A stretch of DNA of 64,000 nt from Haloplasma contractile. GTDB taxonomy: Bacteria; Bacillota_I; Bacilli_A; Haloplasmatales; Haloplasmataceae. The notes below the pieces were generated by a model. That model had not been told where the DNA came from and made no database searches. It saw only the letters and a list, made by a program, of their open reading frames with translations. The stretch covers positions 1 to 64,000 of the forward strand of contig JAENYC010000003.1 of assembly GCA_016841945.1 (NCBI GenBank). Direction: 5' to 3'. Within the stretch, counting starts at the first letter, position 1, and the number at the start of each line of letters is the position of its first letter. Of the stretch, positions 8,617-51,690 are shown in pieces. The translations under genes were made by a program, and so were the position numbers.

Positions 8617-9840
8617 CTATTTATAATTTTTGTATTCTATGTTTTCACTATTTTCTTCCTCTATTTCCTCGGAAGGTGCTAATGATGCAGCAACTTTTTT
8701 TAATTCATTCTTATCTATTGCTTTTAATCCATTACTTTTTAAATCCTTATTAACTTCTGCTAAATCCTTATCAGTAAAATCTTTTAATTTACTACCTATA
8801 TTTTTTAATCTATCTAATAAAAAATTCTGTCTAGTTAGATATAATTTTGCTAATGTTTTGTCGACGTTTCGTTCAACCCATTTTTCTTTTTTTTCTATTG
8901 TTTTCTCTGGCTTGAATTCATTAACGATTTTCAATTTTTTAACTTGATTTAAAAACTCTATCCACATTGGTGCGGTTTTCCAGCGATTCTTATTAGAATC
9001 ATTCGAGTCCCTTATTTTTACATCGAGTACACCATATAAACACTCAAAGGCAAAATTATTAAAATCTTCTTGTGATTTTAAAAGATTGATTAGAAAGTTT
9101 TTCATTATAGTCGTAGCTTTTCCACCAGCGTATCGAATTTCATAACGATACCATACACTAAAATCAAAGACCGGTTTATTTTGAGCTTCTCTTTCTAACT
9201 TCTTATCATAAATTAATAGTTGATTAGAACCCCGTCGGCCGAAATATATTCCGAAACCTGTGAATGTTTCGAGCCTATTATTTTTAGGCATCATAGGGTT
9301 ATGATCATGGAATGTTGAGGTGTAATTACAAGGATCAATATAATTTTCCCATAAGTCATAAATGTCACATATTTCACCTGATGTATCATCAATCGCTAAG
9401 TCAAATCGAGTGCATTTTGCATCCCATTCAATCATTAGTTTAATTAAGTCTGTAAAACTTCCATTACGTTCTAAAAACTCTCTACAAGCAGAACCAGATA
9501 AGTCAATCATGGATGTGTTATAACCTTTAGCATTTTTTGGACCATATAAAAACACTCTAATATATTCTCCAATCACAATACAATTTTTATAACCATGCAT
9601 GCCAAATATTTTTTGATAATCGTACCAATTTTTATCTGCTGTCAAAATACTAAATAACTGATCTATAAATTTTAATGACTCTTCCTGAATTGTAATAGAT
9701 GAATGACTTTTATATGTATATCGGATTTTATCAAATGTACATTTAAAATAATCTATTGAAGCCTTAACATGTTCGTTTTGGTCTTGGTTTGTATAAGTTG
9801 GGTGGGTTATACCTAACCCACCCGGTTCTGAACTTTTCAT
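8617..9840 (-). CDS. Rolling-circle replication initiator (Rep_trans family)
   Basis: This 407-aa protein matches the Rep_trans/replication initiation factor family (pT181 RepC, Tn916 Orf20, CTX phage RstA), which nicks one strand at the origin through a tyrosine. Family landmarks are CTRFDLAIDD (143-152), GIYFGRRGSNQLLIYDKK (197-214, with the candidate catalytic Tyr 211) and YRYEIRYAGG (231-240). The C-terminal 90 residues are charged and helical; the same tail occurs in the remnant at 3375-3527. It lies immediately downstream of the Zot-like ATPase, as rep and assembly genes do in filamentous phages. The start has a weak GGAGG-type site (AATGGAGGTTAAAATATG). Relatives of this family also sit on conjugative elements, but no conjugation genes are present here. 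Confidence 0.88.
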   Translation of the reverse strand: MKSSEPGGLGITHPTYTNQDQNEHVKASIDYFKCTFDKIRYTYKSHSSITIQEESLKFIDQLFSILTADKNWYDYQKIFGMHGYKNCIVIGEYIRVFLYGPKNAKGYNTSMIDLSGSACREFLERNGSFTDLIKLMIEWDAKCTRFDLAIDDTSGEICDIYDLWENYIDPCNYTSTFHDHNPMMPKNNRLETFTGFGIYFGRRGSNQLLIYDKKLEREAQNKPVFDFSVWYRYEIRYAGGKATTIMKNFLINLLKSQEDFNNFAFECLYGVLDVKIRDSNDSNKNRWKTAPMWIEFLNQVKKLKIVNEFKPEKTIEKKEKWVERNVDKTLAKLYLTRQNFLLDRLKNIGSKLKDFTDKDLAEVNKDLKSNGLKAIDKNELKKVAASLAPSEEIEEENSENIEYKNYK

Positions 9841-9957
9841 ATTTTAACCTCCATTTTTAGATTTAAAAATTAGTTTAGTTCTTCAAAATCAAAGACGTAA
9901 AACAGATTAAAAAGTCATAGTAAGGCGAAAAGAGTAACGGCTAACACAGTTTCGCCG

Positions 9958-11982
9958 TTATAATTCTTTTTCGCCTTTACTTACTGGTTCATAAGCTTTT
10001 TTAATAAATCTCATGTTAGTTTTAAGTTCTTCTTCAGTCGAAGGATCTACATGAGAGAAACAAGGTAAATCTTGATATTTTAATTGACTTGCTTTGTTTA
10101 GTTCTGCATATGATTTTCTTAAAAAATCACTTTTAAAGATATCATTTTTAAATATGTCTGTTGTTCGAAATCTTAGGATTTGTTTTTTCCCTTTTTTAGT
10201 TTTAATTTCATCTTCTTCTGTATGAATTTTAAAACAAACCTTTACATAACAATGAAAGAAAATATATTCTTTTATTTTTTGACATGTATGGCCAATTGAT
10301 AATAATAAATGTTTAAATAAAGTTTGATCAATCCGATATTCGCTATATCGTTTTTTTAATTTATTTACAATATTAAGTATTAGGTCATTAATTTTATCTG
10401 GAAACCAAAAAATCCCTTTTGTAACTTTAAGCTTTTTTTGTAAAGTGAAGAACTGGTCTTGAATTTGTTTTATACGACCCACAGTTTGATTAATACTTTG
10501 TTGATCTGTTAATATCTTACCTTTTCTTTCAACTGCGTGAGAAAAAACAGATCTAGATTCAAAATGTCCTTCTTCATTTAAAACTTTCTTATCATTACCG
10601 GATTTATAAGCATGAGCATTTTGTTCATGACTATATTCACTAATAAGTATTATTGTATAAGGTTCATATGGGTTTTCACTTTTATCTGTATTTAATCTAA
10701 TATATTTTCGTAAGTGGTCCATATTGAATATTCTACTATAAGTTTCAAAAGATTTACTTTTAACTGGATAATTAGAATGAATCATTGTTCCTCGATATAC
10801 TATATGGTAAACATTCTCTAGATACTTTCTGAACATTTTTTTAATATCTAAATGATTTAAAAAATTATTATAAGTTAATGAAGAATAAAGATGTGTAATA
10901 GGATAATTAAGATATGTTTCTTCAACACCTGCACGACCATAGGCTTCTATATTCTTATTTAGTAAATGAAGTACTTCTTCAAAATTTATTTTGTTAAGCT
11001 GATTCTCTAACCTTACTAAATCCTCTACCATTTCATCAATATAACAAACTTCAGCCCAGCGGCCTAAACCAGTTAATAATACGGTTTTTCCATATCCTGG
11101 ACGACCTTGTATCATGACGTTATTTTCAACTTTATTGTTAATAAAGTCAATTAATCTAGTCTCATTGCGCTTTTCTTTTTTCTTTAAATGATTTTTAAGT
11201 ATACTTAACAAAATAATAATGACTAAGACAATATATGGCCATGTGTTAAATCTCGTTAAATAAGGAGTCAAAAAAACAAGTAAGGATATAAAATTATAAG
11301 AAATTATAGGGCCAGCGTTGAAATGATAAACAAAAGGTAAATATATAAGAATTTGAATTATTAATTCGATTAAGATCATGATTATTACCCCGTTAACTAT
11401 GAATGTATAAATTATAAGATGTTTAATTATTAATGAGTTCGTTGTAATAAATTTTTTAATAGGAATAATAAGATAGTTTCTAAGTAATAAAGATAATTGA
11501 TACAGGCTAAATTTTATTTTATTATAATATTTTAATGGAATACTTCTATAATTATAGTCTTTGTAAAATTTACCTGTTATTGGATCTCTTTTATCGGTAA
11601 AATAGACTGTATTAATTAATATATAAATAAGTAAACTGTAAAAAAATATATTTAAACCAATTTTAATAATGTTAATATTCAAATTTAAGAAATAATGAAT
11701 TATATCTAATTGTTTAGTAGATTGAAAATGATAGATATAATCAATCGGTTGTTGTATAGGTTCTATTACAACTTCATTAAAATGAGTTTTCAAATGATCC
11801 AGTGTAAATACATTTTTATAAATATAATCATAATAATATGGAGTTATATCACCTTTAGTAATCATCTTGATTAAGTTATTTATAATTTTTGTATATATGT
11901 CATTTAAATTGCTTCTATAAAAAATTATTAATATAAGTGTATAAATAAGATAAATATATATTTTTTTCATGTTTTTTTTCAT
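9958..11982 (-). CDS. Membrane-anchored Zot/pI-like assembly ATPase
   Basis: A 674-aa protein with several membrane segments in the first 265 residues (about 8-21, 105-125, 186-220 and 228-262), then a cytoplasmic ATPase: P-loop GRPGYGKT (293-300), Walker B-like YTIILISEYS (442-451), and KGKILTDQQSINQTVGRI (487-504) where Zot/pI proteins have a conserved polar sensor region followed by Arg. In filamentous phages this ATPase drives virion extrusion through the membrane. The inovirus reading rests on this motif pattern plus the neighbours: secreted anchored proteins upstream and a Rep_trans gene downstream. An FtsK/HerA-type conjugation ATPase is the main alternative, but the large multi-span N-terminus and the lack of other transfer genes argue against it. 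The start lies 5 nt after the upstream stop. Confidence 0.7.
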   Translation of the reverse strand: MKKNMKKIYIYLIYTLILIIFYRSNLNDIYTKIINNLIKMITKGDITPYYYDYIYKNVFTLDHLKTHFNEVVIEPIQQPIDYIYHFQSTKQLDIIHYFLNLNINIIKIGLNIFFYSLLIYILINTVYFTDKRDPITGKFYKDYNYRSIPLKYYNKIKFSLYQLSLLLRNYLIIPIKKFITTNSLIIKHLIIYTFIVNGVIIMILIELIIQILIYLPFVYHFNAGPIISYNFISLLVFLTPYLTRFNTWPYIVLVIIILLSILKNHLKKKEKRNETRLIDFINNKVENNVMIQGRPGYGKTVLLTGLGRWAEVCYIDEMVEDLVRLENQLNKINFEEVLHLLNKNIEAYGRAGVEETYLNYPITHLYSSLTYNNFLNHLDIKKMFRKYLENVYHIVYRGTMIHSNYPVKSKSFETYSRIFNMDHLRKYIRLNTDKSENPYEPYTIILISEYSHEQNAHAYKSGNDKKVLNEEGHFESRSVFSHAVERKGKILTDQQSINQTVGRIKQIQDQFFTLQKKLKVTKGIFWFPDKINDLILNIVNKLKKRYSEYRIDQTLFKHLLLSIGHTCQKIKEYIFFHCYVKVCFKIHTEEDEIKTKKGKKQILRFRTTDIFKNDIFKSDFLRKSYAELNKASQLKYQDLPCFSHVDPSTEEELKTNMRFIKKAYEPVSKGEKEL

Positions 11983-11987
11983 TTGAA

Positions 11988-13037
11988 TTATTTTCGTCTA
12001 AAACGGTCTGATTTATTTTGAAAAGTTGTTGTTACTTTTTTTGCAATTTTAACTCCTTTACCAATACTTTTAATTATTATAATCAATTTGAATACTAGAT
12101 AAAAAATAACTATACAAATAACAATTAAAGAAATATACATTAATACTTTTAGAAATGAAGAACTACCTTCTGTTACACTTGAGATTAATTCATTAATCGC
12201 TTCAATTGGTGATGTGATTAAATTAGTCAAATTACCTATAGCATTTTTCATAGAATTTATAGGAGACATTAAAGTATTGTATATACTTGATTGTAGATTT
12301 TCAATTGCTTTTTTTATTTGATCAATAGGATTAAATTTGTCTAATATATCATCTATTAGAGATGAATCTTCATCATCATCAGGACTGATATAACCATTTA
12401 TACCATCAATACCAAGATATTGAGTAAGATTTATAGTCGGATCTATTATTATTGAACTTTGACTAGTTTCTGGTACAGCTTTAAAATAGGGAACGTTAGT
12501 ATAAAAAAGTTGAAATGTACATTCATCCGTTAAATCAACATAATCATCATCATATATAGGATCATATACTCCATCAAAAGGAGAACCTTCATAAGTAACT
12601 TCCATTGTAAAAAGATCAATATCAAATCTACCAACATAAGGCCCAATACCTTCTACTAAACCATCGTTATTTCCATCATCTAGTAATATATAATCAGAAT
12701 TATCTGGATTATATAATTGCAATACTTGAATATCATGAACATCTTCGCGATGTAACGAATCATAATAATTTGAATAAAGAAGGATAAAAGGCTCATTTAA
12801 GTCAACAGAACTCTGATTATAGTTATATATAAATTCAACAACTTCTTTTCTACTTACTAATATATCATCTCCATTAGCAACCGGAATAATTAAGTCATCA
12901 TTAGTAACGGTAAAAAGACAATTTGTTGTGTTATAGCATGGATTAGTAACAACATCTAGACTCTCAGCTCTTGCATTTAAACTAATTCCAAAACATACTA
13001 TTAATGTTAAGATCAAAAAAAATAACAAACGTTTCAT
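11988..13037 (-). CDS. Secreted, C-terminally anchored protein (candidate phage adsorption protein)
   Basis: A 349-aa protein with a signal peptide (cleavage likely after NARA, residue 24), an Asp/Asn/Tyr-rich extracellular part with two pairs of Cys (NPCYNTTNC near 32-40), a helical amphipathic stretch (QIKKAIENLQSSIYNTL onward, about 236-285), one membrane segment (about 297-322) and a basic tail ending DRFRRK. This is the layout of filamentous-phage minor coat proteins (pIII-like). It sits in one transcription unit with the similar upstream gene and the Zot-like ATPase. No sequence family recognised. Confidence 0.6.
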   Translation of the reverse strand: MKRLLFFLILTLIVCFGISLNARAESLDVVTNPCYNTTNCLFTVTNDDLIIPVANGDDILVSRKEVVEFIYNYNQSSVDLNEPFILLYSNYYDSLHREDVHDIQVLQLYNPDNSDYILLDDGNNDGLVEGIGPYVGRFDIDLFTMEVTYEGSPFDGVYDPIYDDDYVDLTDECTFQLFYTNVPYFKAVPETSQSSIIIDPTINLTQYLGIDGINGYISPDDDEDSSLIDDILDKFNPIDQIKKAIENLQSSIYNTLMSPINSMKNAIGNLTNLITSPIEAINELISSVTEGSSSFLKVLMYISLIVICIVIFYLVFKLIIIIKSIGKGVKIAKKVTTTFQNKSDRFRRK

Positions 13038-13049
13038 TTTATCCCCCTT

Positions 13050-14129
13050 TTACCGTTTATATCGTTCTTTTGAACGATTATTTTTACGTTTTGAGTAATT
13101 TTTCTTACCTAAAGAAAAGATATAGATAAAAAATTTAAATAATATAAATACTATGATAATGCCAATAATACCTAATGTACTTATAACCAACCAATTTGAT
13201 TCTCCATTTTCATTAGTAAATAAATTCAAGTCTTGAATATCATCCTCTAGATTGTAAAAAAACTCTTTAATATTATCGAAAAATATGTTATCATTGTCAT
13301 CTTCAGCTACTGCAAAACGATCAGTAATAGTAATTGTTGCTATTACTGATGAAGTATTTAAATCCTCATCAGTTACACATATTTTATAATCATAAGTTCC
13401 TACCTTATCCCAAATTACCTCAGTTAAATCAAATAATGGAACGATTTCTGTTCTATTTTGATAATCTTTCACAGTAACATTAAGTTGTAAATCTAGAAGA
13501 GTTGGCATTTGATCATTTAAATCATAAATATAATTACTAAAGTTCAATGTAATTTCAGGCTCTTCTACATTTAATAAATCATTTTTTATAAAAGCAAGTG
13601 AGTCGTTAGGATAATTAGGATTAATAACATCAGAGTTTATTAATTCAGTATCAATAATAATAGGAATAGTAGAATAAAAGATATAACATGTTGTTTCATA
13701 ACAGTTTACAGGAGAAGCTATACTTAGACTTCCTCCACTTGTTTTTAACTGTAAAGTATTAGAATCAAATGTAGAATAATAACTATATGATCCAATTGTA
13801 TTAATACTATTTGACTCAAAAAAGTTTGATAGTTTTACTTCATCATACATAGATTGGTATATACTAAATTCATTCTTATTAACTTTGTATACTATAAAGT
13901 AAGGCTTATTTGTATGAATATTAGGTGAATTATCAACAATCGATTTTATTAAAGAGCTACGATTATGTTCTTCAATAAATTCATTGTTACTAATATAAAT
14001 ATGACCAATAGTAGTATCATCAATTTCACTGGCTGATATCGATTCTGCTTTAACATCTATTGTGTTATTAAAAACAATAGTAATAAATAAGACAAGAGAG
14101 AAAACTAATAATAAAATTATTTTTTTCAT
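13050..14129 (-). CDS. Second secreted, C-terminally anchored protein with an Ig-like domain
   Basis: A 359-aa protein with a signal peptide (to about residue 28, VKA), an extracellular region whose part at about 185-272 resembles a bacterial Ig/cadherin-like fold (ending VGTYDYKICVTDEDLN, then TITITD), one membrane segment (about 310-335) and a Lys/Arg/Asn-rich tail ending SKERYKR. Topology matches the next gene downstream, suggesting duplication of function or paired virion-tip proteins. An AGGAGG ribosome site lies inside the 3' end of the preceding small gene, implying coupled translation. Confidence 0.6.
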   Translation of the reverse strand: MKKIILLLVFSLVLFITIVFNNTIDVKAESISASEIDDTTIGHIYISNNEFIEEHNRSSLIKSIVDNSPNIHTNKPYFIVYKVNKNEFSIYQSMYDEVKLSNFFESNSINTIGSYSYYSTFDSNTLQLKTSGGSLSIASPVNCYETTCYIFYSTIPIIIDTELINSDVINPNYPNDSLAFIKNDLLNVEEPEITLNFSNYIYDLNDQMPTLLDLQLNVTVKDYQNRTEIVPLFDLTEVIWDKVGTYDYKICVTDEDLNTSSVIATITITDRFAVAEDDNDNIFFDNIKEFFYNLEDDIQDLNLFTNENGESNWLVISTLGIIGIIIVFILFKFFIYIFSLGKKNYSKRKNNRSKERYKR

Positions 14130-36061: not shown

Positions 36062-37234
36062 CTATTTCTTATCAAAAACAACCATTTCGTAGTGTTCTTC
36101 AAATAATTTTTCAAGATATAAAATATTATATTGTCCGCTGATAATAGAAGAATACTTCGGATGTCTTGTTCCAACCAAGTAAGGGGTTCTAATACTAGCT
36201 TTTTCACCAAAATTATTTTTAAATAAGGTTTCAAAATTTTCTATCGCAACGCCACCACCAATTAGGACATATTGACTAATTTTATTTTTAAGCCCTATTT
36301 CTAATAAATATCTCCTAATGACACGAATAATTTCTAAATATTTTTCTTCAATTATTTTCGCTATAAATTCATTGGTAATATAAGTGATTGATCCATCTGA
36401 AAAACGTTTTTCAAATACGATTTCTTCCGTTGCTTCTTTTGCTAAACAGTTTCCATGAGTCATCTTAAAATCTTCACAATCTTCATAAGATAATCCTAAT
36501 GATTCTTGTATCGCTTCTGTCACAATATTTGACCCAATCTTAAATGTTTCACTTTTTTTGATCATATAATTACTAAATATCGTAATCGTAGTAGTTGAAG
36601 CCCCAATATCAACAACAGAGGTGTAATTTAACATTTCATCCTTCGTAAGAAGTGATTTCTTATAACCCACAACATTAGGCATAATCTCTATTACTTCTAT
36701 TCCTAATTGTTCCAAAACAGATACAAAATCGATAATAATTTGTTGATTTTCATAAACGATTTCTAAACTTGCAAAAATCTGTCTTGTTATCTGTCCAACA
36801 GGATTATCTATCCTACGTTTCATTTTGACCGAAGTGAAACTATTGGGATAAATATATGCGATTTCTCCTTTTCTATCAGATGAAGTCATTTCTTCAGTAT
36901 AAACTTTATTGAATAGATTTTTTATATGTTTACCCTTTACTTTATTATCAGGAATAGTGATATCATAATTCACTTCCTTAGTGTGCAAATCAACACTTGG
37001 TAACATCAAGACAACAGAATTAATTTTTGTATGAAGAAATTTTTCACATTTCGTTATTAATTTCTTTACATCATGATATACTAGTGATTTATCAATAATT
37101 TCGCCAATTCTTATTCCCGATGTGTGCTCCTCATCGATAAACAATATATTTTGTTTTTCTTCATAAAATTCTGAAACTAGTAGTTTTATAGAATGAGTTC
37201 CAAATTCAATTGATGCATATATATTTCGTTCCAT
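36062..37234 (-). CDS. ftsA: Cell division protein FtsA
   Basis: About 390 aa, actin-fold ATPase that tethers FtsZ to the membrane: phosphate-1 IEFGTHSIKLLV near the N-terminus, the SHS2 (1C) insertion with VLMLPSVDLHTKEV, phosphate-2 VVDIGASTTTITIF, and adenosine motif YVLIGGGVAIENFE. The C-terminal end (YLEKLFEEHYEMVVFDKK) is a weak version of the amphipathic membrane-targeting helix. Two adjacent ATGs (37237, 37234) are both possible. It has its own upstream region after a murB terminator. Confidence 0.93.
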   Translation of the reverse strand: MERNIYASIEFGTHSIKLLVSEFYEEKQNILFIDEEHTSGIRIGEIIDKSLVYHDVKKLITKCEKFLHTKINSVVLMLPSVDLHTKEVNYDITIPDNKVKGKHIKNLFNKVYTEEMTSSDRKGEIAYIYPNSFTSVKMKRRIDNPVGQITRQIFASLEIVYENQQIIIDFVSVLEQLGIEVIEIMPNVVGYKKSLLTKDEMLNYTSVVDIGASTTTITIFSNYMIKKSETFKIGSNIVTEAIQESLGLSYEDCEDFKMTHGNCLAKEATEEIVFEKRFSDGSITYITNEFIAKIIEEKYLEIIRVIRRYLLEIGLKNKISQYVLIGGGVAIENFETLFKNNFGEKASIRTPYLVGTRHPKYSSIISGQYNILYLEKLFEEHYEMVVFDKK

Positions 37235-37365
37235 CATCTCACCATCTTTCAATAAAGCACATTTACTACATTTTACACTATTTTAACATATAAAAAAAGT
37301 TATTTTTAGGATAATATTGTAAATTATATATTCTATTATAGCACATATTATTTTAACATAAAAAT

Positions 37366-37413: not shown

Positions 37414-38322
37414 TTAATCCCAATTAAAAAATTCAATCTCAGGTTGTAATTTAACACCTGTTACTTGATAGACTTTTTCTATTGTATATTCAACTAAATC
37501 TTTTACATCTTTACTTTTTGCTTTTTCAACATTAATGATAAAGTTACAATGTTTTTCACTGATTTTTGCACCACCCATTTGATATCCTCTTAAACCTGCT
37601 TTATCAATTAAGAGATAAGCATGCGTTCCTATCGGATTTCTAAAGGTAGAACCACCACTTGGAAACTTCAAAGGTTGTGTATTTATCCTTCTTTTTCTTC
37701 GCTTTTCTAATAGATTTCTAATTATTTCGCTACTTCCTTTTTTTAGTTTTAATTTAGCTTCAATAATTAATAACGGCTTTTCATATTGAAGAATTGATTT
37801 TCGATAAGCATATTGTAAATCTTCTTTATGATAGGTTAGAAACTCACCCTTATGATTAATCAATAAGATTTCTTTTACAACATCTTTCATTTCTTTATTA
37901 TATGCACCTGCATTCATAAAAACAGCGCCACCTATTGTACCAGGTATTCCCCCTATAAATTCTAAGCCTTCTAATTCATATTGAATCATATCATATGCTA
38001 ATTTTACAAGGGAATATCCAGCACCAACAATAACTTCTCTGTCTTTTACTTCCAAGTAATTTAAAGCTTGATTTGTTTTAATAATGATACCTTCATATAT
38101 TTTATCAGAGGGTAATAAATTAGAACCATTTCCTATGACTTTAAAAGGCATGTTTTTTAATTTTAAATATTCTACCAAACTAATCAATTGCTTCTTTGTT
38201 TCTGGTGTTACAACAAACCTTGCAATCCCTCCAACTTGAAACGTGGTGTGGTTTGAAAGTGGTTCATTAATCTTAAAGTTTTTAAAGTTATTTTCACTAA
38301 GATAGCTCTCCACTTCAATCAT
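37414..38322 (-). CDS. murB: UDP-N-acetylenolpyruvoylglucosamine reductase
   Basis: A 302-aa FAD enzyme that reduces the enolpyruvyl group to make UDP-MurNAc. Visible: NHTTFQVGGIARF (about 23-35), FAD-binding VIGNGSNLLPSD (about 61-72), GGIPGTIGGAVFMNAGAY (about 123-140), catalytic Ser/proton-donor motif GGSTFRNPIGTHA (about 222-234) and PEIEFF at the end. It is a short Gram-positive (type II) MurB. AAGGTGATTAT precedes the ATG. Second-last gene of the ftsW-murG-murB run. Confidence 0.95.
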   Translation of the reverse strand: MIEVESYLSENNFKNFKINEPLSNHTTFQVGGIARFVVTPETKKQLISLVEYLKLKNMPFKVIGNGSNLLPSDKIYEGIIIKTNQALNYLEVKDREVIVGAGYSLVKLAYDMIQYELEGLEFIGGIPGTIGGAVFMNAGAYNKEMKDVVKEILLINHKGEFLTYHKEDLQYAYRKSILQYEKPLLIIEAKLKLKKGSSEIIRNLLEKRRKRRINTQPLKFPSGGSTFRNPIGTHAYLLIDKAGLRGYQMGGAKISEKHCNFIINVEKAKSKDVKDLVEYTIEKVYQVTGVKLQPEIEFFNWD

Positions 38323-39463: not shown

Positions 39464-40567
39464 TCATACCTCATCATCGTTTTGATACTTACTGATGTTT
39501 AATATGATGCCAACACCTAACAATGTAACCGTTAAACTAGAACCACCATAACTTAAAAAAGGTAAGGTAATACCCGTAACAGGTAATAACCCAATGACAA
39601 CCCCGATATTTATAAAAAACTGTATAAATATCGTCAATGTAATACCTAGAGCTAAAAATTTTCCAAATAAATCCTTGGCTTTATAACTAATTTGTAAACT
39701 GGTGATTAAAAAGGTTGTATATAATATCAAAATAGCCACCCCACCGATAAATCCTAATTCTTCAATAATAATCGCAAATATAAAATCAGTTTGAGGTTCT
39801 GGTAAATAGAAGTATTTTTGTATACTATTTCCAAAACCCACACCAAATAATCCACCTGGTGCAATCGCATATAAGGATTGAATAATTTGAAAACCAGCAC
39901 CCAAAGGATCACTCCAAGGATCCAAATAAGCAAATATTCTTTGGAGACGATAAGGTGCAGAAATAATGAGAAGTGTTATGCCACCAAGTCCTGCTAGAAT
40001 TAAATATAAAAAGTAAGATAAATCAACCCCAGATACAAAAAGCATAACAATAACAGTTGCAACTATCACCATACCAGTACCAAAATCAGGTTGAAGCATA
40101 ACAAGACCAAAAACAAGAAGCAGTACACATAGCAGTAATAGTACATACTTTATTTTTTTCATATCATGATAGTAATCTGACAAATATTTACTCACTAGCA
40201 TGATACAAGCGATTTTCATGAATTCAGAAGGTTGAATAGAAAATGTTCCAATCCCAATCCAACTTCTAGCACCACCTCTAACAATTCCAATTCCAGGTAA
40301 TAATACCATAATCAATAGACCTAACCCTACTAAAAAAATAAATGATGCATTTTTTTTATATATTTGATAATCAATTTTTGAAATTATATACATCCCTAAT
40401 AAACCAATTGACGCAAATATTAACTGTCTCCACAAATAATAATACCTGTCATTAAACTTAAATTCTGCCCATATTTGACTTGCACTATAAACCATGATGA
40501 CGCCAATTAATGTTAAAAGAATCGTTGTCACAAATAATAAAATATTCATTTGTTTTTCTTGTTTCAT
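39464..40567 (-). CDS. ftsW: SEDS-family peptidoglycan polymerase FtsW
   Basis: A 367-aa protein with about ten membrane spans and SEDS motifs (RSWIGIGTFSIQPSEFMKIA, QPDFGTGM, PEPQTDFIFAIIIEELGF, LPFLSYGGSS). It polymerises lipid II with a partner class B PBP, presumably the one encoded at 44.8 kb. By position between murD and murG it is the FtsW/SpoVE type rather than RodA. The ATG at 40567 follows GAGGTG. Its leader carries two near-identical hairpins. Confidence 0.93.
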   Translation of the reverse strand: MKQEKQMNILLFVTTILLTLIGVIMVYSASQIWAEFKFNDRYYYLWRQLIFASIGLLGMYIISKIDYQIYKKNASFIFLVGLGLLIMVLLPGIGIVRGGARSWIGIGTFSIQPSEFMKIACIMLVSKYLSDYYHDMKKIKYVLLLLCVLLLVFGLVMLQPDFGTGMVIVATVIVMLFVSGVDLSYFLYLILAGLGGITLLIISAPYRLQRIFAYLDPWSDPLGAGFQIIQSLYAIAPGGLFGVGFGNSIQKYFYLPEPQTDFIFAIIIEELGFIGGVAILILYTTFLITSLQISYKAKDLFGKFLALGITLTIFIQFFINIGVVIGLLPVTGITLPFLSYGGSSLTVTLLGVGIILNISKYQNDDEV

Positions 40568-44802: not shown

Positions 44803-46719
44803 TCACTCCCTTGATAAATAAATTAAAATGGTTCCACCCTCTGTGACTTTTTCTCCTGGACGAGGACTTTGATATTTCACCACATTTCCTTCACCGAAAA
44901 ATTCATATTTATAATAATAGACTGGTGGTAGTTCTTTTCTTTTTAATCCAATTAAATTGGGTACGGTATAATATTTAGTATCCCATCCCCATCGGAGTTC
45001 TTTTTCGATTTGATCAGCTTGTTTTGGAATCCCTAATATTGGCAGGGCTTCTTGAAGAATTTCTTTTACAATCGGCGCTGCAACAACTCCCCCGTATTGT
45101 ATAGTGTTCTTTGGATTATCAATGGCAACATAAACCACAATTTGTGGGTCATTCATGGGAGCAGCACCAATAAATGAAACAATATAATTATTATCTAAAT
45201 AGACACCATCCACTGCTTTTTGCGCAGTACCTGTTTTTCCTCCTACACGATAGCCATCAATAAATGCATTTCTCCCCGTCCCTTTTGCCACAACACTTTC
45301 AAGGGCATATCGCATGACATCAGATGTTTCTTCACTAATGACTCGCCTTACCGCATTCTTTTTCTTTTCATATATTAAGTCATTCGTAATTGGCATGCGA
45401 ATTTCTTTTAACACATAAGGTTGATAGAGGATGCCCCCATTAATCGCTGCAGATACTGCGGTAACAAGTTGAATAGGTGTTACTGAATTTCCCTGACCAA
45501 AGGATGAGGTTGCAAGTTCTACAGGGCCTACATCTTCTAAATCAAATACTATCCCTTTTGACTCACCTAATAAGTCAATGCCTGTTTTCTTTCCAAACCC
45601 ATATAAATCAATGTATTTAAATAAGTTTTCAGCACCTAGTCTTCTCCCTATTTCCATAAATCCAGGGTTACATGAATTTTGTATCACTTCAAGAAAGGTT
45701 TGATCCCCATGTCCTCCAGCTTTCCAATCCTTAATCCGAGTCCCATCGACAATGGTGTATCCAGGGTCATAAAAATGTTCATCTAATTCAAAAACCCCTT
45801 CTTCAATTCCCGCTGAATATGTAACAATTTTAAAAGTAGACCCTGGTTCATAACTCATCCAGATGGGTAAATTACGATTATAAATTTCTTGATCGTATTT
45901 TTGATATTCTGTTGGATTATAAGAAGGATAACTTGCCATTGCGAGTATCTCACCATTTTTAGGATTCATCGCTAAACCAAGAATTTGATCAGGATTATAT
46001 CTTGCATTTGTATTTTCTAAGACACGTTCAAGTAATATTTGTATATCCATATCAATCGTTAAATAAATATCCATTCCTTTAGTTGGTGCTTCATATAAAC
46101 CATACAACTGTGATAAAGCATTACCTTTTGCATCAGTAAAATACTTACTACTTCCACTATTCCCCATTAAATAATCATCATAAATATATTCAATTCCTGT
46201 AATTCCTTGATTATCAATACCAACAAAACCCAATACATGTGCTAAATAATCATTATATAAATAATTTCGTGTTGTATCTCCAACTAAATAGACACCTCTG
46301 TAATTCTTATCAATTATTCTTTTGGCCTGTTCAAGTGATAATTTTCTTCCTTCTGGTTTAATTAATTCTACAGACACATGCTTTGATACATGTTTATACG
46401 CCTCTTCATAACTGACCTCTAAAACATCACTTAAAAATGAAGCAACTTCCTCTTTGTTTTCAATCTGTCTTGGAATTAAGGCAACACTTGGAGATAACTT
46501 ATTATTAACAATTGGTTTACCGTTACGATCATATATAATACCTCTTTGTCCTTCTACTGGTATATTTCGACTCCATAAGGCATAAGCCTTATCAGTAATA
46601 TCACTTCCATTAACAAATTGTACAAAAGCTAATCGAAATATTAAAACGATAATCAATAAAGAAAATAAGACCATGAGAAATTTTAATCTCTTTTGCATGA
46701 TGAGGATAAAATCATTCAT
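44803..46719 (-). CDS. Class B penicillin-binding protein with PASTA domain
   Basis: A 638-aa septal or sporulation-type transpeptidase (PbpB/SpoVD family). An N-terminal membrane anchor (about 14-35), a dimerisation domain with GQRGIIYDRNG, and a transpeptidase domain with SxxK in EPGSTFKIV (about 292-300), SxN-type NSCNPGF and KTG in GGKTGTAQ (about 493-500), then one PASTA domain (about 577-638, YTVPNLIGL onward). It would cross-link stem peptides outside the membrane with FtsW. First gene of the murE-side unit; its normal upstream partners rsmH and ftsL lie 4 kb away behind an inserted block. Confidence 0.93.
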   Translation of the reverse strand: MNDFILIMQKRLKFLMVLFSLLIIVLIFRLAFVQFVNGSDITDKAYALWSRNIPVEGQRGIIYDRNGKPIVNNKLSPSVALIPRQIENKEEVASFLSDVLEVSYEEAYKHVSKHVSVELIKPEGRKLSLEQAKRIIDKNYRGVYLVGDTTRNYLYNDYLAHVLGFVGIDNQGITGIEYIYDDYLMGNSGSSKYFTDAKGNALSQLYGLYEAPTKGMDIYLTIDMDIQILLERVLENTNARYNPDQILGLAMNPKNGEILAMASYPSYNPTEYQKYDQEIYNRNLPIWMSYEPGSTFKIVTYSAGIEEGVFELDEHFYDPGYTIVDGTRIKDWKAGGHGDQTFLEVIQNSCNPGFMEIGRRLGAENLFKYIDLYGFGKKTGIDLLGESKGIVFDLEDVGPVELATSSFGQGNSVTPIQLVTAVSAAINGGILYQPYVLKEIRMPITNDLIYEKKKNAVRRVISEETSDVMRYALESVVAKGTGRNAFIDGYRVGGKTGTAQKAVDGVYLDNNYIVSFIGAAPMNDPQIVVYVAIDNPKNTIQYGGVVAAPIVKEILQEALPILGIPKQADQIEKELRWGWDTKYYTVPNLIGLKRKELPPVYYYKYEFFGEGNVVKYQSPRPGEKVTEGGTILIYLSRE

Positions 46720-46912: not shown

Positions 46913-47827
46913 ATGAAAAGAGCACGAATTATATATAACCCATCTTCTGGTAGAGAACTTGTTAGAAAACAACTACCCTATATTTTAGAACGCCTAGAAC
47001 AAGCAGGATATGAAACAAGCGCCCATGCAACGACGGGGGAAGGCTGCGCACGAAAAGCGGCCGAAATCGCAGTTAGACGAAAATACGACCTTGTGATTGC
47101 CGCTGGTGGTGATGGTACGGTATTTGAAGTCATCAATGGTCTAGCCGAAAAAGAATATCGTCCGACATTAGGCATTATACCTGCAGGAACCACAAATGAT
47201 TTTGCAAGAGCATTGGGAATACCCCGTAACATTAAAAAAAATTGTGATATATTATGTGGGGATTACACAAGATTCATTGATATAGGAAAAGCCAATGAAA
47301 AATACTTTATTAATGTGGCCGCTGGAGGTGCTTTTACCGAATTAACCTACCAAGTACCTAGTAAATTAAAAACCATTTTTGGTCGTCTTGCCTATTTCAT
47401 CAAAGGTTTCGAAAAATTAGCTTATATCAAAACAAAAACAGTACGTTTTGAGTATGACAACAAAGTCTATGAAGGAGATGTTTTATTTTTTTTAATTTGT
47501 AATTCAACATCCGTTGGTGGCTTTGAGCGAATAGCACTACGGTCTAAAATTGATGATGGTTTATTTGATTTAATTATTGTAGAGAAAATGAACATACCAA
47601 AACTTGTCGGTGCTGGTATTCAAACCTTAAGTGGTAAACATTTGAAAAACGCAAAAATAAAATACTATCAAGCAAAAAATATAAAAGTATCAGTCAAAGA
47701 TGGCACACCTCTTAATTTAGATGGTGAATATGGTGGAGAATTTCCATGTGAGTTTACAAACTTAAATAAACATTTTAAACTTTTGGTACCAAAACCAAAA
47801 AATATGATTAAAACCTCTAAAAAATAG
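46913..47827 (+). CDS. dgkB: Diacylglycerol kinase (DgkB/YerQ type)
   Basis: A 304-aa soluble lipid kinase: IIYNPSSGRE at the N-terminus, nucleotide loop AAGGDGTVFEVINGL (about 60-74) and PAGTTNDFARALGIP (about 86-100), and DGEYGGEFP near the C-terminus. It recycles diacylglycerol to phosphatidic acid, needed when lipoteichoic acid is made from phosphatidylglycerol. First of three plus-strand genes inserted in the wall cluster. TATAAT at 46875-46880 is a likely -10 box. Confidence 0.93.
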   Translation: MKRARIIYNPSSGRELVRKQLPYILERLEQAGYETSAHATTGEGCARKAAEIAVRRKYDLVIAAGGDGTVFEVINGLAEKEYRPTLGIIPAGTTNDFARALGIPRNIKKNCDILCGDYTRFIDIGKANEKYFINVAAGGAFTELTYQVPSKLKTIFGRLAYFIKGFEKLAYIKTKTVRFEYDNKVYEGDVLFFLICNSTSVGGFERIALRSKIDDGLFDLIIVEKMNIPKLVGAGIQTLSGKHLKNAKIKYYQAKNIKVSVKDGTPLNLDGEYGGEFPCEFTNLNKHFKLLVPKPKNMIKTSKK

Positions 47828-47841
47828 AAGAGGTTTTTTTA
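47812..47841 (+). terminator. Rho-independent terminator
   Basis: AACCTCT and AGAGGTT around a 10-nt loop with a seven-T run; overlaps the dgkB stop. Confidence 0.8.
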
Positions 47842-47930
47842 TTTTCCATAAATTGTCAACTGTAATGCTAGAAATTAACATAATTTTTCTATATAATGAA
47901 GAAGTAAATTAATATTAATTGAGGTATGAT

Positions 47931-49157
47931 ATGAAGAAATTAAATCAAGCAACAACTATCTATTATATCTACTGTGGTGTTACAGCACTACTTTTTATCA
48001 TGATGAAAACAGTGAGAGAAATTTATCGTGTTGATATTGCAGAGTTCAATGCATTTCAAATCGTGATAGTCGGGACGACATTAGAAATCACGCACTTACT
48101 TTTTGAAGTCCCTACAGGCATTATTGCTGATAAATATAGTCGGAAACTGTCAATAATAATAGGACTGGTATTAATAGGAAGTGCTATTTTACTAGAAGGA
48201 TTATTACCTATCTTTTTACTCATTTTAGGAACACAACTCTTTTTAGGAATTGGAGATACATTTACAAGTGGAGCAGATGAGGCTTGGATAGCTGATGAAT
48301 TAAATGGAGAAAATATGACACCCGTCTTTTTAAAAGGCGCTCAAATTGGACAATTTCTTTCAATCTTCGGTACCATTTTAGGGATCATTTTTGGCTATCA
48401 CTATATTCGATTACCTTATTTTATAAGCGGTAGTATATTTATATTACTGGCGCTCTTTTTACTCATTTTTATGAAAGAAATCAATTTTAAAAAAGAAAAA
48501 TCAACACTTTCCCATTTTCATCATATGAAACAGTCACTCACCCTCGTTATTTCATTGATTAAACAGAAAAAAGTATTGGTTTTTATGGTCGTGATAACCT
48601 TTATGCACGGTTTGTACAGTGAAGGTATCGATAGACTTTGGACACCTCATTTTAAATATCAATTTAATTTACCCGATAAAGATGATGTTTTATGGATCGG
48701 TTCTATTTCATTATGTGCGATGTCACTCAGTATCATCGCGGTACAATATATCAAAAAAAGACTTGCTAGAACCAATAAACTAGATCGTGTTTGGTTACTA
48801 TTTATCATCAATTTATTGATGGTCGTCACTTTATTTAGTTTTGCGATGACTAAACACTTCTATATCTCAGCAAGTTTATACATCATTTTTTACACTGTAA
48901 GACGAATTAATCGTCCAATATATAGAGCTTGGATGAATGAATACATCCCATCAAATATTCGAGCAACGGTATTATCGAGTTATGGTCAATTAGATTCAAT
49001 TGGTCAAATCATCGGTGGACCAATCATTGGCTTAATCGCGGTCAACACATCTTATTCATTTGGAATATTATTTGCATCAATCCTTTTAACACCCGTTGTT
49101 TTTATTTACTTATACTTTATAAAAAGAGTTATAAAGTATAAAGAAGACGCATTATAA
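47931..49157 (+). CDS. MFS transporter
   Basis: A 408-aa protein with about twelve membrane spans. The motif A-like loop is IIADKYSRKLSIIIG (about 60-74), and TSGADEAWIADEL is typical of a drug/sugar efflux subgroup seen in many Firmicutes. The substrate cannot be told. The ATG at 47931 follows GAGGTATGAT; an in-frame ATG 12 nt upstream overlaps that site. Confidence 0.85.
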   Translation: MKKLNQATTIYYIYCGVTALLFIMMKTVREIYRVDIAEFNAFQIVIVGTTLEITHLLFEVPTGIIADKYSRKLSIIIGLVLIGSAILLEGLLPIFLLILGTQLFLGIGDTFTSGADEAWIADELNGENMTPVFLKGAQIGQFLSIFGTILGIIFGYHYIRLPYFISGSIFILLALFLLIFMKEINFKKEKSTLSHFHHMKQSLTLVISLIKQKKVLVFMVVITFMHGLYSEGIDRLWTPHFKYQFNLPDKDDVLWIGSISLCAMSLSIIAVQYIKKRLARTNKLDRVWLLFIINLLMVVTLFSFAMTKHFYISASLYIIFYTVRRINRPIYRAWMNEYIPSNIRATVLSSYGQLDSIGQIIGGPIIGLIAVNTSYSFGILFASILLTPVVFIYLYFIKRVIKYKEDAL

Positions 49158-49242
49158 TCATTAAAATAACAATATTTACTATCATGAAAAAAGTTAGCTA
49201 ATCTAATAATAATAAGGAATGATATTATTAGAGGTGGCAACA

Positions 49243-50571
49243 ATGAAAATAAAGAAAAAATATGGATTATGGACATCTATTGCGATGGTTGTTGGCGTTG
49301 TGATTGGTTCTGGTGTCTTTTTTAAAGCCGATGATGTCTTAGCACTAACAAATGGGAACTTAATTCTTGCTTTATTAGCATGGATAATCGGTGCATTCTC
49401 TATGATATTTGGTGCATTGGTTTTTTCTGATTTTGCCCATAGAATTCAATATGTAAATGGTGTTGTTGATTATTCTGAAGTGGCCTACGGTAAAAAGATA
49501 GGATACATTGTAGGCTGGTTTAAGTGGACTGTTTATTACTCGCCACTTTCTGCCATATTGGCTTGGGTATCAGCTATGTATACGCTCATACTATTTAATC
49601 ATCACAATCCAGCTAATTCTTATTTTACTTGGTTATTAGCGTTCATATATTTAACATTAGGTTATGTAATGAATTACTATTCACCACTTTTAGCTGGTAA
49701 ATTTCAAGTCACAACAACCATTATAAAACTCATTCCACTGACGTTAATCGCGATAGTAGGGATAATCGTTGGTTTACATAATGACATATTAATCAATCAT
49801 ATCACGACTGCTGTTACTACTGTCCAAAATAAAACTGGTTCCTTAACTTCAGCAGTTGTATCAACAGCCTTTGCCTATGAAGGATGGATTGTTGCTACAA
49901 CGATTAATCATGAGATAATAGATTCCAAAAAAAATTTACCAAAAGCATTGGTAATGGGTACGATGATTGTCTTCATCGTTTATGTCACTTATTTTTTAGG
50001 GATTGCGGCTGTATTATCACCTGATATAATTCTCATAGAAGGAGACAACGCGATAAAATTGGCGGCGAAAACTTTATTTGGAAATATTGCCTCTGTTTTA
50101 ATCACCTCATTTGTGGTGGTTTCATGTTTAGGTACTTTAAATGGTCTTATCATATCTTCTATTAGAACACCACTATCATTAGCGATTAGGAATCAAGGAA
50201 TAAAACCTAAACTACTGGCAATCATTCATCCCAAAACAACCATGCCTCCTATTTCAACTCTTTTTGCCCTCATATTTTCATCTTTATATTTATTCATTTG
50301 GTATGGGAGTTTAAACAACTGGTTTGGTCAATTTATCGCCATTGATGAAATACCCATTGTATTAATCTATGGCCTATACATATTTTTATACGTATGGTAT
50401 ATAAAAACATATAAAGAATTAAGTATTTTAAAACGATATATTATTCCAATTCTTGCGATATTCGGTTCAATCATCATTTTATACGGAGGTATCACAAATC
50501 CAAGTATCGGTTATTATCTCATCATCTCTATCGTCATTATTCTATTAGGTTTAATATTTTATCGTGAATAA
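49243..50571 (+). CDS. APC-family amino acid permease
   Basis: A 442-aa, twelve-span transporter. The N-terminal substrate loop WTSIAMVVGVVIGSGVFFK (about 9-27) with the unwound G-S-G motif and the span with STAFAYEGWIVATTIN identify the APC superfamily (LAT-like exchangers or serine/threonine type). Specificity is unknown. The ATG at 49243 follows AGAGGTGG. Followed by a weak hairpin (GAAG...CTTC, 50573-50596). Confidence 0.88.
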   Translation: MKIKKKYGLWTSIAMVVGVVIGSGVFFKADDVLALTNGNLILALLAWIIGAFSMIFGALVFSDFAHRIQYVNGVVDYSEVAYGKKIGYIVGWFKWTVYYSPLSAILAWVSAMYTLILFNHHNPANSYFTWLLAFIYLTLGYVMNYYSPLLAGKFQVTTTIIKLIPLTLIAIVGIIVGLHNDILINHITTAVTTVQNKTGSLTSAVVSTAFAYEGWIVATTINHEIIDSKKNLPKALVMGTMIVFIVYVTYFLGIAAVLSPDIILIEGDNAIKLAAKTLFGNIASVLITSFVVVSCLGTLNGLIISSIRTPLSLAIRNQGIKPKLLAIIHPKTTMPPISTLFALIFSSLYLFIWYGSLNNWFGQFIAIDEIPIVLIYGLYIFLYVWYIKTYKELSILKRYIIPILAIFGSIIILYGGITNPSIGYYLIISIVIILLGLIFYRE

Positions 50572-50603
50572 AAAGAAGTCATAAAATGGCTTCTTTTCAT
50601 TTA

Positions 50604-50747
50604 TTAATTAGACACTATTTTATATTGTAAATATAGGATGATGCTAACACTCAATATAAAAAGAATAATCCATAATCTCATAAAAAACAAAATGCGAAAA
50701 TGAGATTGTTTTTTATGTTTTTCTATTTTATATTGTATGAGTTTCAT
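50604..50747 (-). CDS. Very short FtsL-like membrane protein
   Basis: A 47-aa frame, MKLIQYKIEKHKKQSH, a single membrane span (about 19-41), then QYKIVSN and stop. It begins 4 nt after the rsmH stop (TGATGATATG), exactly where ftsL sits in Firmicutes wall clusters, and shows ftsL topology (basic cytoplasmic N-terminus, one span) but lacks the extracellular coiled coil. It is either a minimal divisome protein or an ftsL cut short by the inserted plus-strand genes. Confidence 0.5.
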   Translation of the reverse strand: MKLIQYKIEKHKKQSHFRILFFMRLWIILFILSVSIILYLQYKIVSN

Positions 50748-50751
50748 ATCA

Positions 50752-51690
50752 TCACTTTTCTTTCACTTTTTGTACAATTCGAAGTTTAGCTGAATGAGCA
50801 CGATTGTTTTCTTCTAATTCTTCATTACTAGGAATAATGACTTTCCGATTGATGCGTTTTAAAATAGGTCTTTCTAAATCCTTAGGGAGTATAGGAAGTC
50901 CACGGGGTACATCAGGGGTTTTGGAATATTTTTTAAAGATATCTTTGACAATCCTATCTTCTAATGAATGAAAACTTATCACACAAATTCTTCCGTCAAC
51001 ATCAAGTAAGTCTATCGCTTTTTCTAATGCCTCTGGTAATACCTCTAACTCTCTATTAGTTTCTATCCGGAGTGCTTGAAAGGTTCTTTTTGCGGGATGT
51101 TTTCCACGTAAACTTTTAGCTGGAACTGACTTTTTAATAATATCAACAAGTTCAAATGTTGTTTCAATCGCTTTTTTTTCCCTTGCTTTTTCAATCCCTC
51201 TTGCGATATTTTTAGCATATCTTTCTTCTCCATAACGGGAAATAATGCGAAATAAATCTTGAAAGGCATAATGATTAACGATATCATAAGCACTTAATGA
51301 CTGATTCACATCCATTCGCATATCAAGTTTTGCCTCTTTTTGATAACTAAACCCACGCTTCCCTTGGTCAAATTGAGGAGATGATACACCTAAATCAAAT
51401 AATATACCATTAACTTTACAAACATTTCTGTGATTTAATTCTTCTTTTAAATCCTTAAAATTACGCTGTATGATTTCATAACGTCGACTTATTCTTTTTA
51501 ATCTTGTATTCGCTGCGATAATGGCTTCTTCATCTTGGTCAAAACAATACAAAAAACCTTTATCCAATCGTTTTAAGATTTCACTGCTGTGTCCTCCACC
51601 ACCTAAAGTACAGTCTACATATATTCCATTGGGATTTATATTTAAGCCCTCTATTGATTCCTTTAATAATACACTTTCATGATGAAACAT
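50752..51690 (-). CDS. rsmH: 16S rRNA m4C1402 methyltransferase RsmH (MraW)
   Basis: A 312-aa SAM-dependent methyltransferase acting on the ribosomal decoding centre. Visible: N-terminal HHESVLLKESIEGL, SAM loop VDCTLGGGGHSSEIL (about 24-38), ILFDLGVSSPQFD (about 97-109), GFSYQ, and C-terminal FHSLEDRIVK. Ordinarily the second gene of the dcw cluster (after mraZ, which is not next to it here). GGAGG precedes the ATG. Confidence 0.97.
   Translation of the reverse strand: MFHHESVLLKESIEGLNINPNGIYVDCTLGGGGHSSEILKRLDKGFLYCFDQDEEAIIAANTRLKRISRRYEIIQRNFKDLKEELNHRNVCKVNGILFDLGVSSPQFDQGKRGFSYQKEAKLDMRMDVNQSLSAYDIVNHYAFQDLFRIISRYGEERYAKNIARGIEKAREKKAIETTFELVDIIKKSVPAKSLRGKHPAKRTFQALRIETNRELEVLPEALEKAIDLLDVDGRICVISFHSLEDRIVKDIFKKYSKTPDVPRGLPILPKDLERPILKRINRKVIIPSNEELEENNRAHSAKLRIVQKVKEK

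Follow-up and report, generated by a model that had tools for sequence, protein, structure and literature searches.

FtsL and DivIC/FtsB are usually held to act through their extracellular parts. In B. subtilis, DivIB and DivIC reportedly work solely through their external domains, as the title of a 1999 paper has it; this makes the half retained at the locus described here surprising, and it speaks against easy extrapolation. The two parts of E. coli FtsL have different targets: the cytoplasmic one recruits FtsW, the periplasmic one acts on FtsI (PMC7733951). In the P. aeruginosa complex, FtsL contacts TM1 of FtsW in the membrane and is paired with FtsB along the whole of its length, with FtsI bound outside (PMC7614612). 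In C. difficile, two-hybrid assays showed an interaction between SpoVD and FtsL, and the work there indicates that FtsL and FtsB can be restricted to sporulation (PMC10693644).

The window analysed here is a 64,000-nucleotide stretch of the Haloplasma contractile genome, designated G000. Its short ftsL product, mini-FtsL, shares with FtsL of the DivIB-FtsL-DivIC (FtsQLB) complex (TIGR02209) the place after rsmH, a single span and a basic tail of about 18-20 residues, and it resembles the membrane segment of the FtsL of a relative, G006. In contrast to FtsL, it is without an extracellular coiled coil or C-terminal region, and DivIB, PBP2B and a full DivIC, which complete the known system, were not found in its genome. 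A second ORF type, mini-DivIC, has in common with DivIC/FtsB (PF04977) its location between yabQ and spoIIE, one span and a strongly basic tail, but carries 6-21 residues outside the membrane versus 66 and is not recognised by PF04977. As in the polar divisome of C. difficile, dcw-encoded SpoVE-SpoVD occurs with an FtsL homologue and a putative FtsB homologue, and without a canonical FtsW-FtsI pair; unlike G000, where DivIB and a second SEDS gene were not found, C. difficile possesses FtsQ as well as a RodA-PBP2 pair (PMC10693644). Peptidoglycan remodelling, inferred in another study for the Haloplasmatales ancestor, fits this picture (PMC10868615). Among open-licence papers, no published account of FtsL in Haloplasma was found.

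The short gene after rsmH

An earlier note on this DNA had placed a 47-aa, single-span ORF at the canonical ftsL position, 4 nt past rsmH. This was borne out, and its conservation makes it a real gene. The ORF starts with ATG, 4 nt past the rsmH stop, and comprises 47 codons plus the stop. Hydropathy revealed a single hydrophobic stretch, whose best 21-residue window (residues 19-39) averages 2.49 on the Kyte-Doolittle scale. It is preceded by 18 residues with a net charge of +5 and followed by 8 residues. Together with the charge bias, this predicts one span with a cytoplasmic N-terminus. The earlier note had counted three to six residues outside the membrane; the short exterior was confirmed, and the count was corrected to 8 past the best 21-residue window, a figure that varies with the helix boundary chosen. 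No extracellular coiled-coil domain is present: after these residues come the stop and then a hairpin.

Searches of mini-FtsL against Pfam and NCBIfam, including TIGR02209, gave no family match. Under an order-1 Markov null with the window's composition, a start no further than 10 nt away with 47 or more open codons behind it arose in 468 of 40,000 draws. As such ORFs are not rare in this A+T-rich window, the bare ORF is weak evidence and relatives are needed.

The hairpin had a z value of −5.74 when folded on the minus strand; a scan of the region found one hairpin (listed on the plus strand) against 1.5 expected in shuffles. A hairpin lies directly past the short-ftsL stop in all four genomes tested (G000, G001, G002 and G007). 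A coiled coil concealed downstream in another frame was considered, and was ruled out in these four genomes by the hairpin after the stop and in G000 also by the convergent gene.

Table 1. Features of the locus and of its putative partner (window coordinates unless indicated).
Feature	Position	Strand	Remarks
ftsA-like gene	36062..37252	-	PF14450 over cut-off; TIGR01174 150.9, below cut-off 175.85
SEDS gene, SpoVE/FtsW type	39464..40567	-	ftsW 406.3 (cut-off 337.5); spoVE 442.1 (cut-off 448.8)
spoVD	44803..46719	-	TIGR02214 709.8 bits (cut-off 688)
Three plus-strand genes	46913..50571	+	occupy the place of pbpB in G006; presumably lipid-kinase-like, MFS-like and amino-acid-permease-like
Terminator-like hairpin	50571..50597	.	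directly past the mini-FtsL stop; common to the convergent plus-strand gene
Short ftsL (mini-FtsL)	50604..50747	-	47 aa; a single span between a basic tail and 8 outer residues
rsmH	50752..51690	-	312 aa; upstream neighbour of mini-FtsL; presumed identity, named as in the earlier note
mini-DivIC	G000:C4:17464-17619, outside window		assigned from its slot between yabQ and spoIIE

Of 40 related genomes, 37 had relatives of rsmH. The order sample comprised eight genomes (G000-G007), all of one family, Haloplasmataceae. A single-span ORF of 47-59 aa lies directly 3' of rsmH in five of the eight, representing three genera; its length is 47 aa in G000, 48 in G001, 49 in G002 and G007, and 59 in G005, counted from an inner ATG (a TTG start would give 63). 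The most divergent relative, G006, has a 113-aa FtsL after rsmH, then a 703-aa PBP. An unrelated 79-aa ORF follows rsmH in G004, and in G003 an FtsL start stops after 17 codons, as read from the DNA by eye.

Across 22 loci outside the family, a post-rsmH ORF of 94-117 aa, read as FtsL, was present in 10; the rest had shorter ORFs, other genes or nothing. In two genomes of other families, G013 and G035 (loci L036 and L024), rsmH is followed by single-span ORFs of 73 and 75 aa, and no PBP comes next; these ORFs are possibly further shortened FtsL forms. In G021 (locus L031), a SpoVD-like PBP directly follows rsmH, with no FtsL ORF between.

Used as a single query, mini-FtsL matched the post-rsmH places of G001 (E 5.8e-11), G002 (2.8e-4) and G007 (5.1e-4); the places in G005 (E 0.25) and the full ftsL of G006 (0.3) were weaker and stood among other weak matches elsewhere. 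Combined into a profile, the five short sequences recovered their five source places in the eight genomes at E <=1e-20, as expected for profile members, and nothing elsewhere better than E 0.008. A survey of 395 genomes of the class returned the five family members together with weak matches in G227 (E 5.7e-5, internal stop) and G305 (E 8.2e-4).

The divIC slot and the reduced divisome

Between genes taken to be yabQ and spoIIE, G006 encodes a full DivIC (112 aa, PF04977 49 bits). In G000, G001, G002, G007 and G005, this slot holds a single-span ORF of 52-59 aa that overlaps the end of yabQ and has neither a PF04977 match nor an extracellular coiled coil. A profile of the five members found its own five places and a stretch of G003 with two in-frame stops (E 4.7e-5), whereas G004 has only 33 nt between yabQ and the next gene. 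The first 75 bases of the G003 contig C29 (L143), just before this remnant, presumably resemble antisense SPFH/stomatin sequence, and the contig end is probably chimeric.

Selection on mini-DivIC was significant for G002-G007 (p 0.0085, or 0.0011 when only the part beyond the yabQ overlap is counted) and not for G000-G001 (p 0.46, or 0.08 beyond the overlap). The hhalign comparison with the DivIC of G006 was weak (probability 8%), and one of 134 background segments scored as high. We infer, mainly from its position, that the ORF descends from DivIC, and mini-FtsL is probably partnered with this likewise shortened protein. A full-length FtsL or DivIC elsewhere in G000 was also considered and rejected: matches to the DivIC family there all stayed below threshold, the best reaching 18 bits against a cut-off of 28.9 and lying within a 947-aa frame. 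DivIC-like profile matches outside the places named above were taken as chance, given their E-values and long host frames.

FtsL and DivIC are jointly truncated at the same structural point. The residues past the best 21-residue window, for FtsL and DivIC respectively, number 8 and 7 in G000, 8 and 11 in G001, 10 and 6 in G002, 9 and 6 in G007, and 18 and 21 in G005, compared with 62 and 66 in G006. Because ftsL and divIC lie at different loci, one deletion cannot explain both truncations. G003 retains remnants of both genes and G004 has neither. In a tree of four dcw proteins with two outgroups, these two genomes were not sisters (98/98 branch between them) and the presence pattern needs two changes; joint loss thus amounts to only two events, with G003 possibly affected by assembly. 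The order of G005 and G006, supported at 90/90 in an earlier tree whose outgroup rows included several wrong paralogues, was not resolved in the two-outgroup tree.

The DivIC and POTRA (DivIB) families were over cut-off in one of the eight genomes, G006, where DivIB adjoins murB. In G000, divIB was expected between the ftsA-like gene and murB (37414-38322), and only 161 nt separate them. For class-B PBPs, G000 yielded a single candidate, SpoVD. The rsmH-spoVD interval was seen whole in G000 to G006, and a second class-B PBP lay in it only in G006; the best NCBIfam scores of that 703-aa protein were below cut-off, and its position is the reason for naming it PBP2B. The G007 contig does not span the whole interval, and the three transpeptidase matches of this genome comprise one SpoVD-like protein and two others. 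Transpeptidase matches of this other kind are presumably class A PBPs, judging by length.

A single SEDS match was found in seven of the eight genomes, that of G000 being the gene in Table 1. G006 has two, the second scoring below cut-off for both FtsW (286.8) and RodA (278.8). Since these seven genomes combine a single SEDS protein with a single SpoVD-type PBP, one synthase may serve all septal or spore-wall work. Completeness was 85% for G005 and 91% for G007, so absences there are weaker.

Selection and descent

Within genera, NG86 estimates for the short ftsL were dS 1.05 and dN 0.26 for G000-G001 (Fisher p 0.0012, dN/dS about 0.25) and dS 2.11 and dN 0.31 for G002-G007 (p 5e-6, dN/dS about 0.15). 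The gene is under purifying selection in both testable within-genus pairs. Values between genera (dS 0.85-1.91, dN 0.50-0.79) approach saturation and carry less weight. When neutral change was simulated at d 1.05 with no indels, 511 of 20,000 sequences stayed open, and none of the 20,000 was both open and identical at 29 or more of the 47 positions.

The FtsL of G006 scored 30.0 against TIGR02209 (E 3.5e-7), below the curated cut-off of 42.45. Aligned with its membrane segment by hhalign, the short family scored 30.9 (probability 79%); 134 background membrane segments from the examined loci scored at most 20.1, and the DivIC of G006 12.8. Against a mixed profile of 15 FtsL members, the probability was 29%. 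In the G006 genome, the short-FtsL profile ranked ftsL third (E 0.21). Among solved structures, the short profile had no convincing counterpart, its matches being 10 sequences of a solute carrier at E 0.49-0.61, and 15 FtsL sequences likewise gave nothing at E 0.01. Position and sequence together make it very likely that mini-FtsL descends from full-length FtsL, and we are confident in describing it as a conserved, shortened FtsL.

Of the two origins proposed in the earlier note, use of a minimal FtsL by the divisome gained support, with the short form in five genomes of three genera and purifying selection in both tested pairs. The other, that insertion of the plus-strand genes cut ftsL, did not hold: downstream content varies among the short-form genomes, and the diacylglycerol-kinase-like gene is missing from one of them, G005. 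The note had also reasoned that a relative with a full coiled-coil FtsL would indicate simple truncation. G006 is such a relative and truncation did occur, but the shortening is an old truncation retained under selection rather than fresh damage. The objection that binding to DivIC requires the coil of FtsL was answered in an unexpected way, as the divIC-slot ORF likewise has no coil.

Proposed role of the helix pair

We lean towards a mechanism in which a coil-free FtsL-DivIC helix pair is kept for one SpoVE-SpoVD synthase. In this model, mini-FtsL would retain the cytoplasmic tail and membrane helix of FtsL, its extracellular coiled coil having been lost, and its helix would still pair with that of mini-DivIC within the membrane. 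The pair may dock onto the lone SEDS polymerase, of the SpoVE/FtsW type, that works with the transpeptidase SpoVD, and would recruit or steady this synthase in vegetative division, sporulation or both. The outer halves of FtsL and DivIC would have become dispensable once PBP2B and DivIB were lost. By analogy with the systems described above, the retained half may be the one facing SEDS, and the lost half the one facing the lost partners. Only tentatively, at rather less than even chances, do we extend this to a fuller scenario: the ectodomains of FtsL and DivIC would have disappeared together, as would DivIB, PBP2B and the second SEDS enzyme, leaving a co-selected helix pair to recruit or activate one SpoVE-SpoVD synthase for all septa. 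The stub pair is not indispensable, since G003 and G004 do without both.

Alternative readings differ in how far they depart from this one. A role in sporulation only, with the pair serving the polar septum or cortex together with SpoVE-SpoVD and class A PBPs making the vegetative septum, overlaps with the preferred mechanism; the timing of the pair's action is the sole difference. In all eight family genomes SpoIVA passes the cut-off, yabP-yabQ adjoin the divIC place, SpoVD is the only class-B PBP candidate, and FtsL, FtsQ and FtsB of C. difficile offer a model (PMC10693644). We nevertheless consider it unlikely, as G003 and G004 retain SpoIVA, yabQ and SpoVD but are without the pair.

It is less probable still that the short genes are functionless remnants decaying after the loss of PBP2B, DivIB and the ectodomains. 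Losses in two lineages, the decayed remnants of both genes in G003 and the longer tails of G005, as in stepwise erosion, would agree with such decay; purifying selection in both within-genus pairs, the rarity with which an unconstrained ORF stayed open in the neutral simulation, the hairpin directly past the stop in four of four tested genomes and the joint retention of both genes in five genomes argue against it. An unrelated small membrane protein that follows rsmH by chance is very improbable. Short hydrophobic sequences are easily alike, mini-FtsL matches no family and the short profile ranks ftsL only third within G006, but the score of 30.9 to the G006 FtsL exceeds the background maximum of 20.1 (n = 134), and the place, the start after rsmH and the joint pattern with the divIC slot are the same among the genomes.

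If the preferred coil-free pair works, it would provide a minimal system for testing the intramembrane role alone. A lineage keeping the inner half would separate two jobs, SEDS contact in the membrane and transpeptidase control outside, and the family shows what goes together when a divisome simplifies on the way to wall-less bacteria.

Among the neighbouring genes, the lipid-kinase-like gene (window 46913-47827) lies antiparallel before spoVD in G000, G001, G002, G004 and G007, and G006 has pbpB there. Elsewhere in the window, positions 8617-14129 carry genes that we take to resemble a Rep/FtsK-type integrative element, and those at 75-2973 presumably resemble an McrBC-like restriction system.
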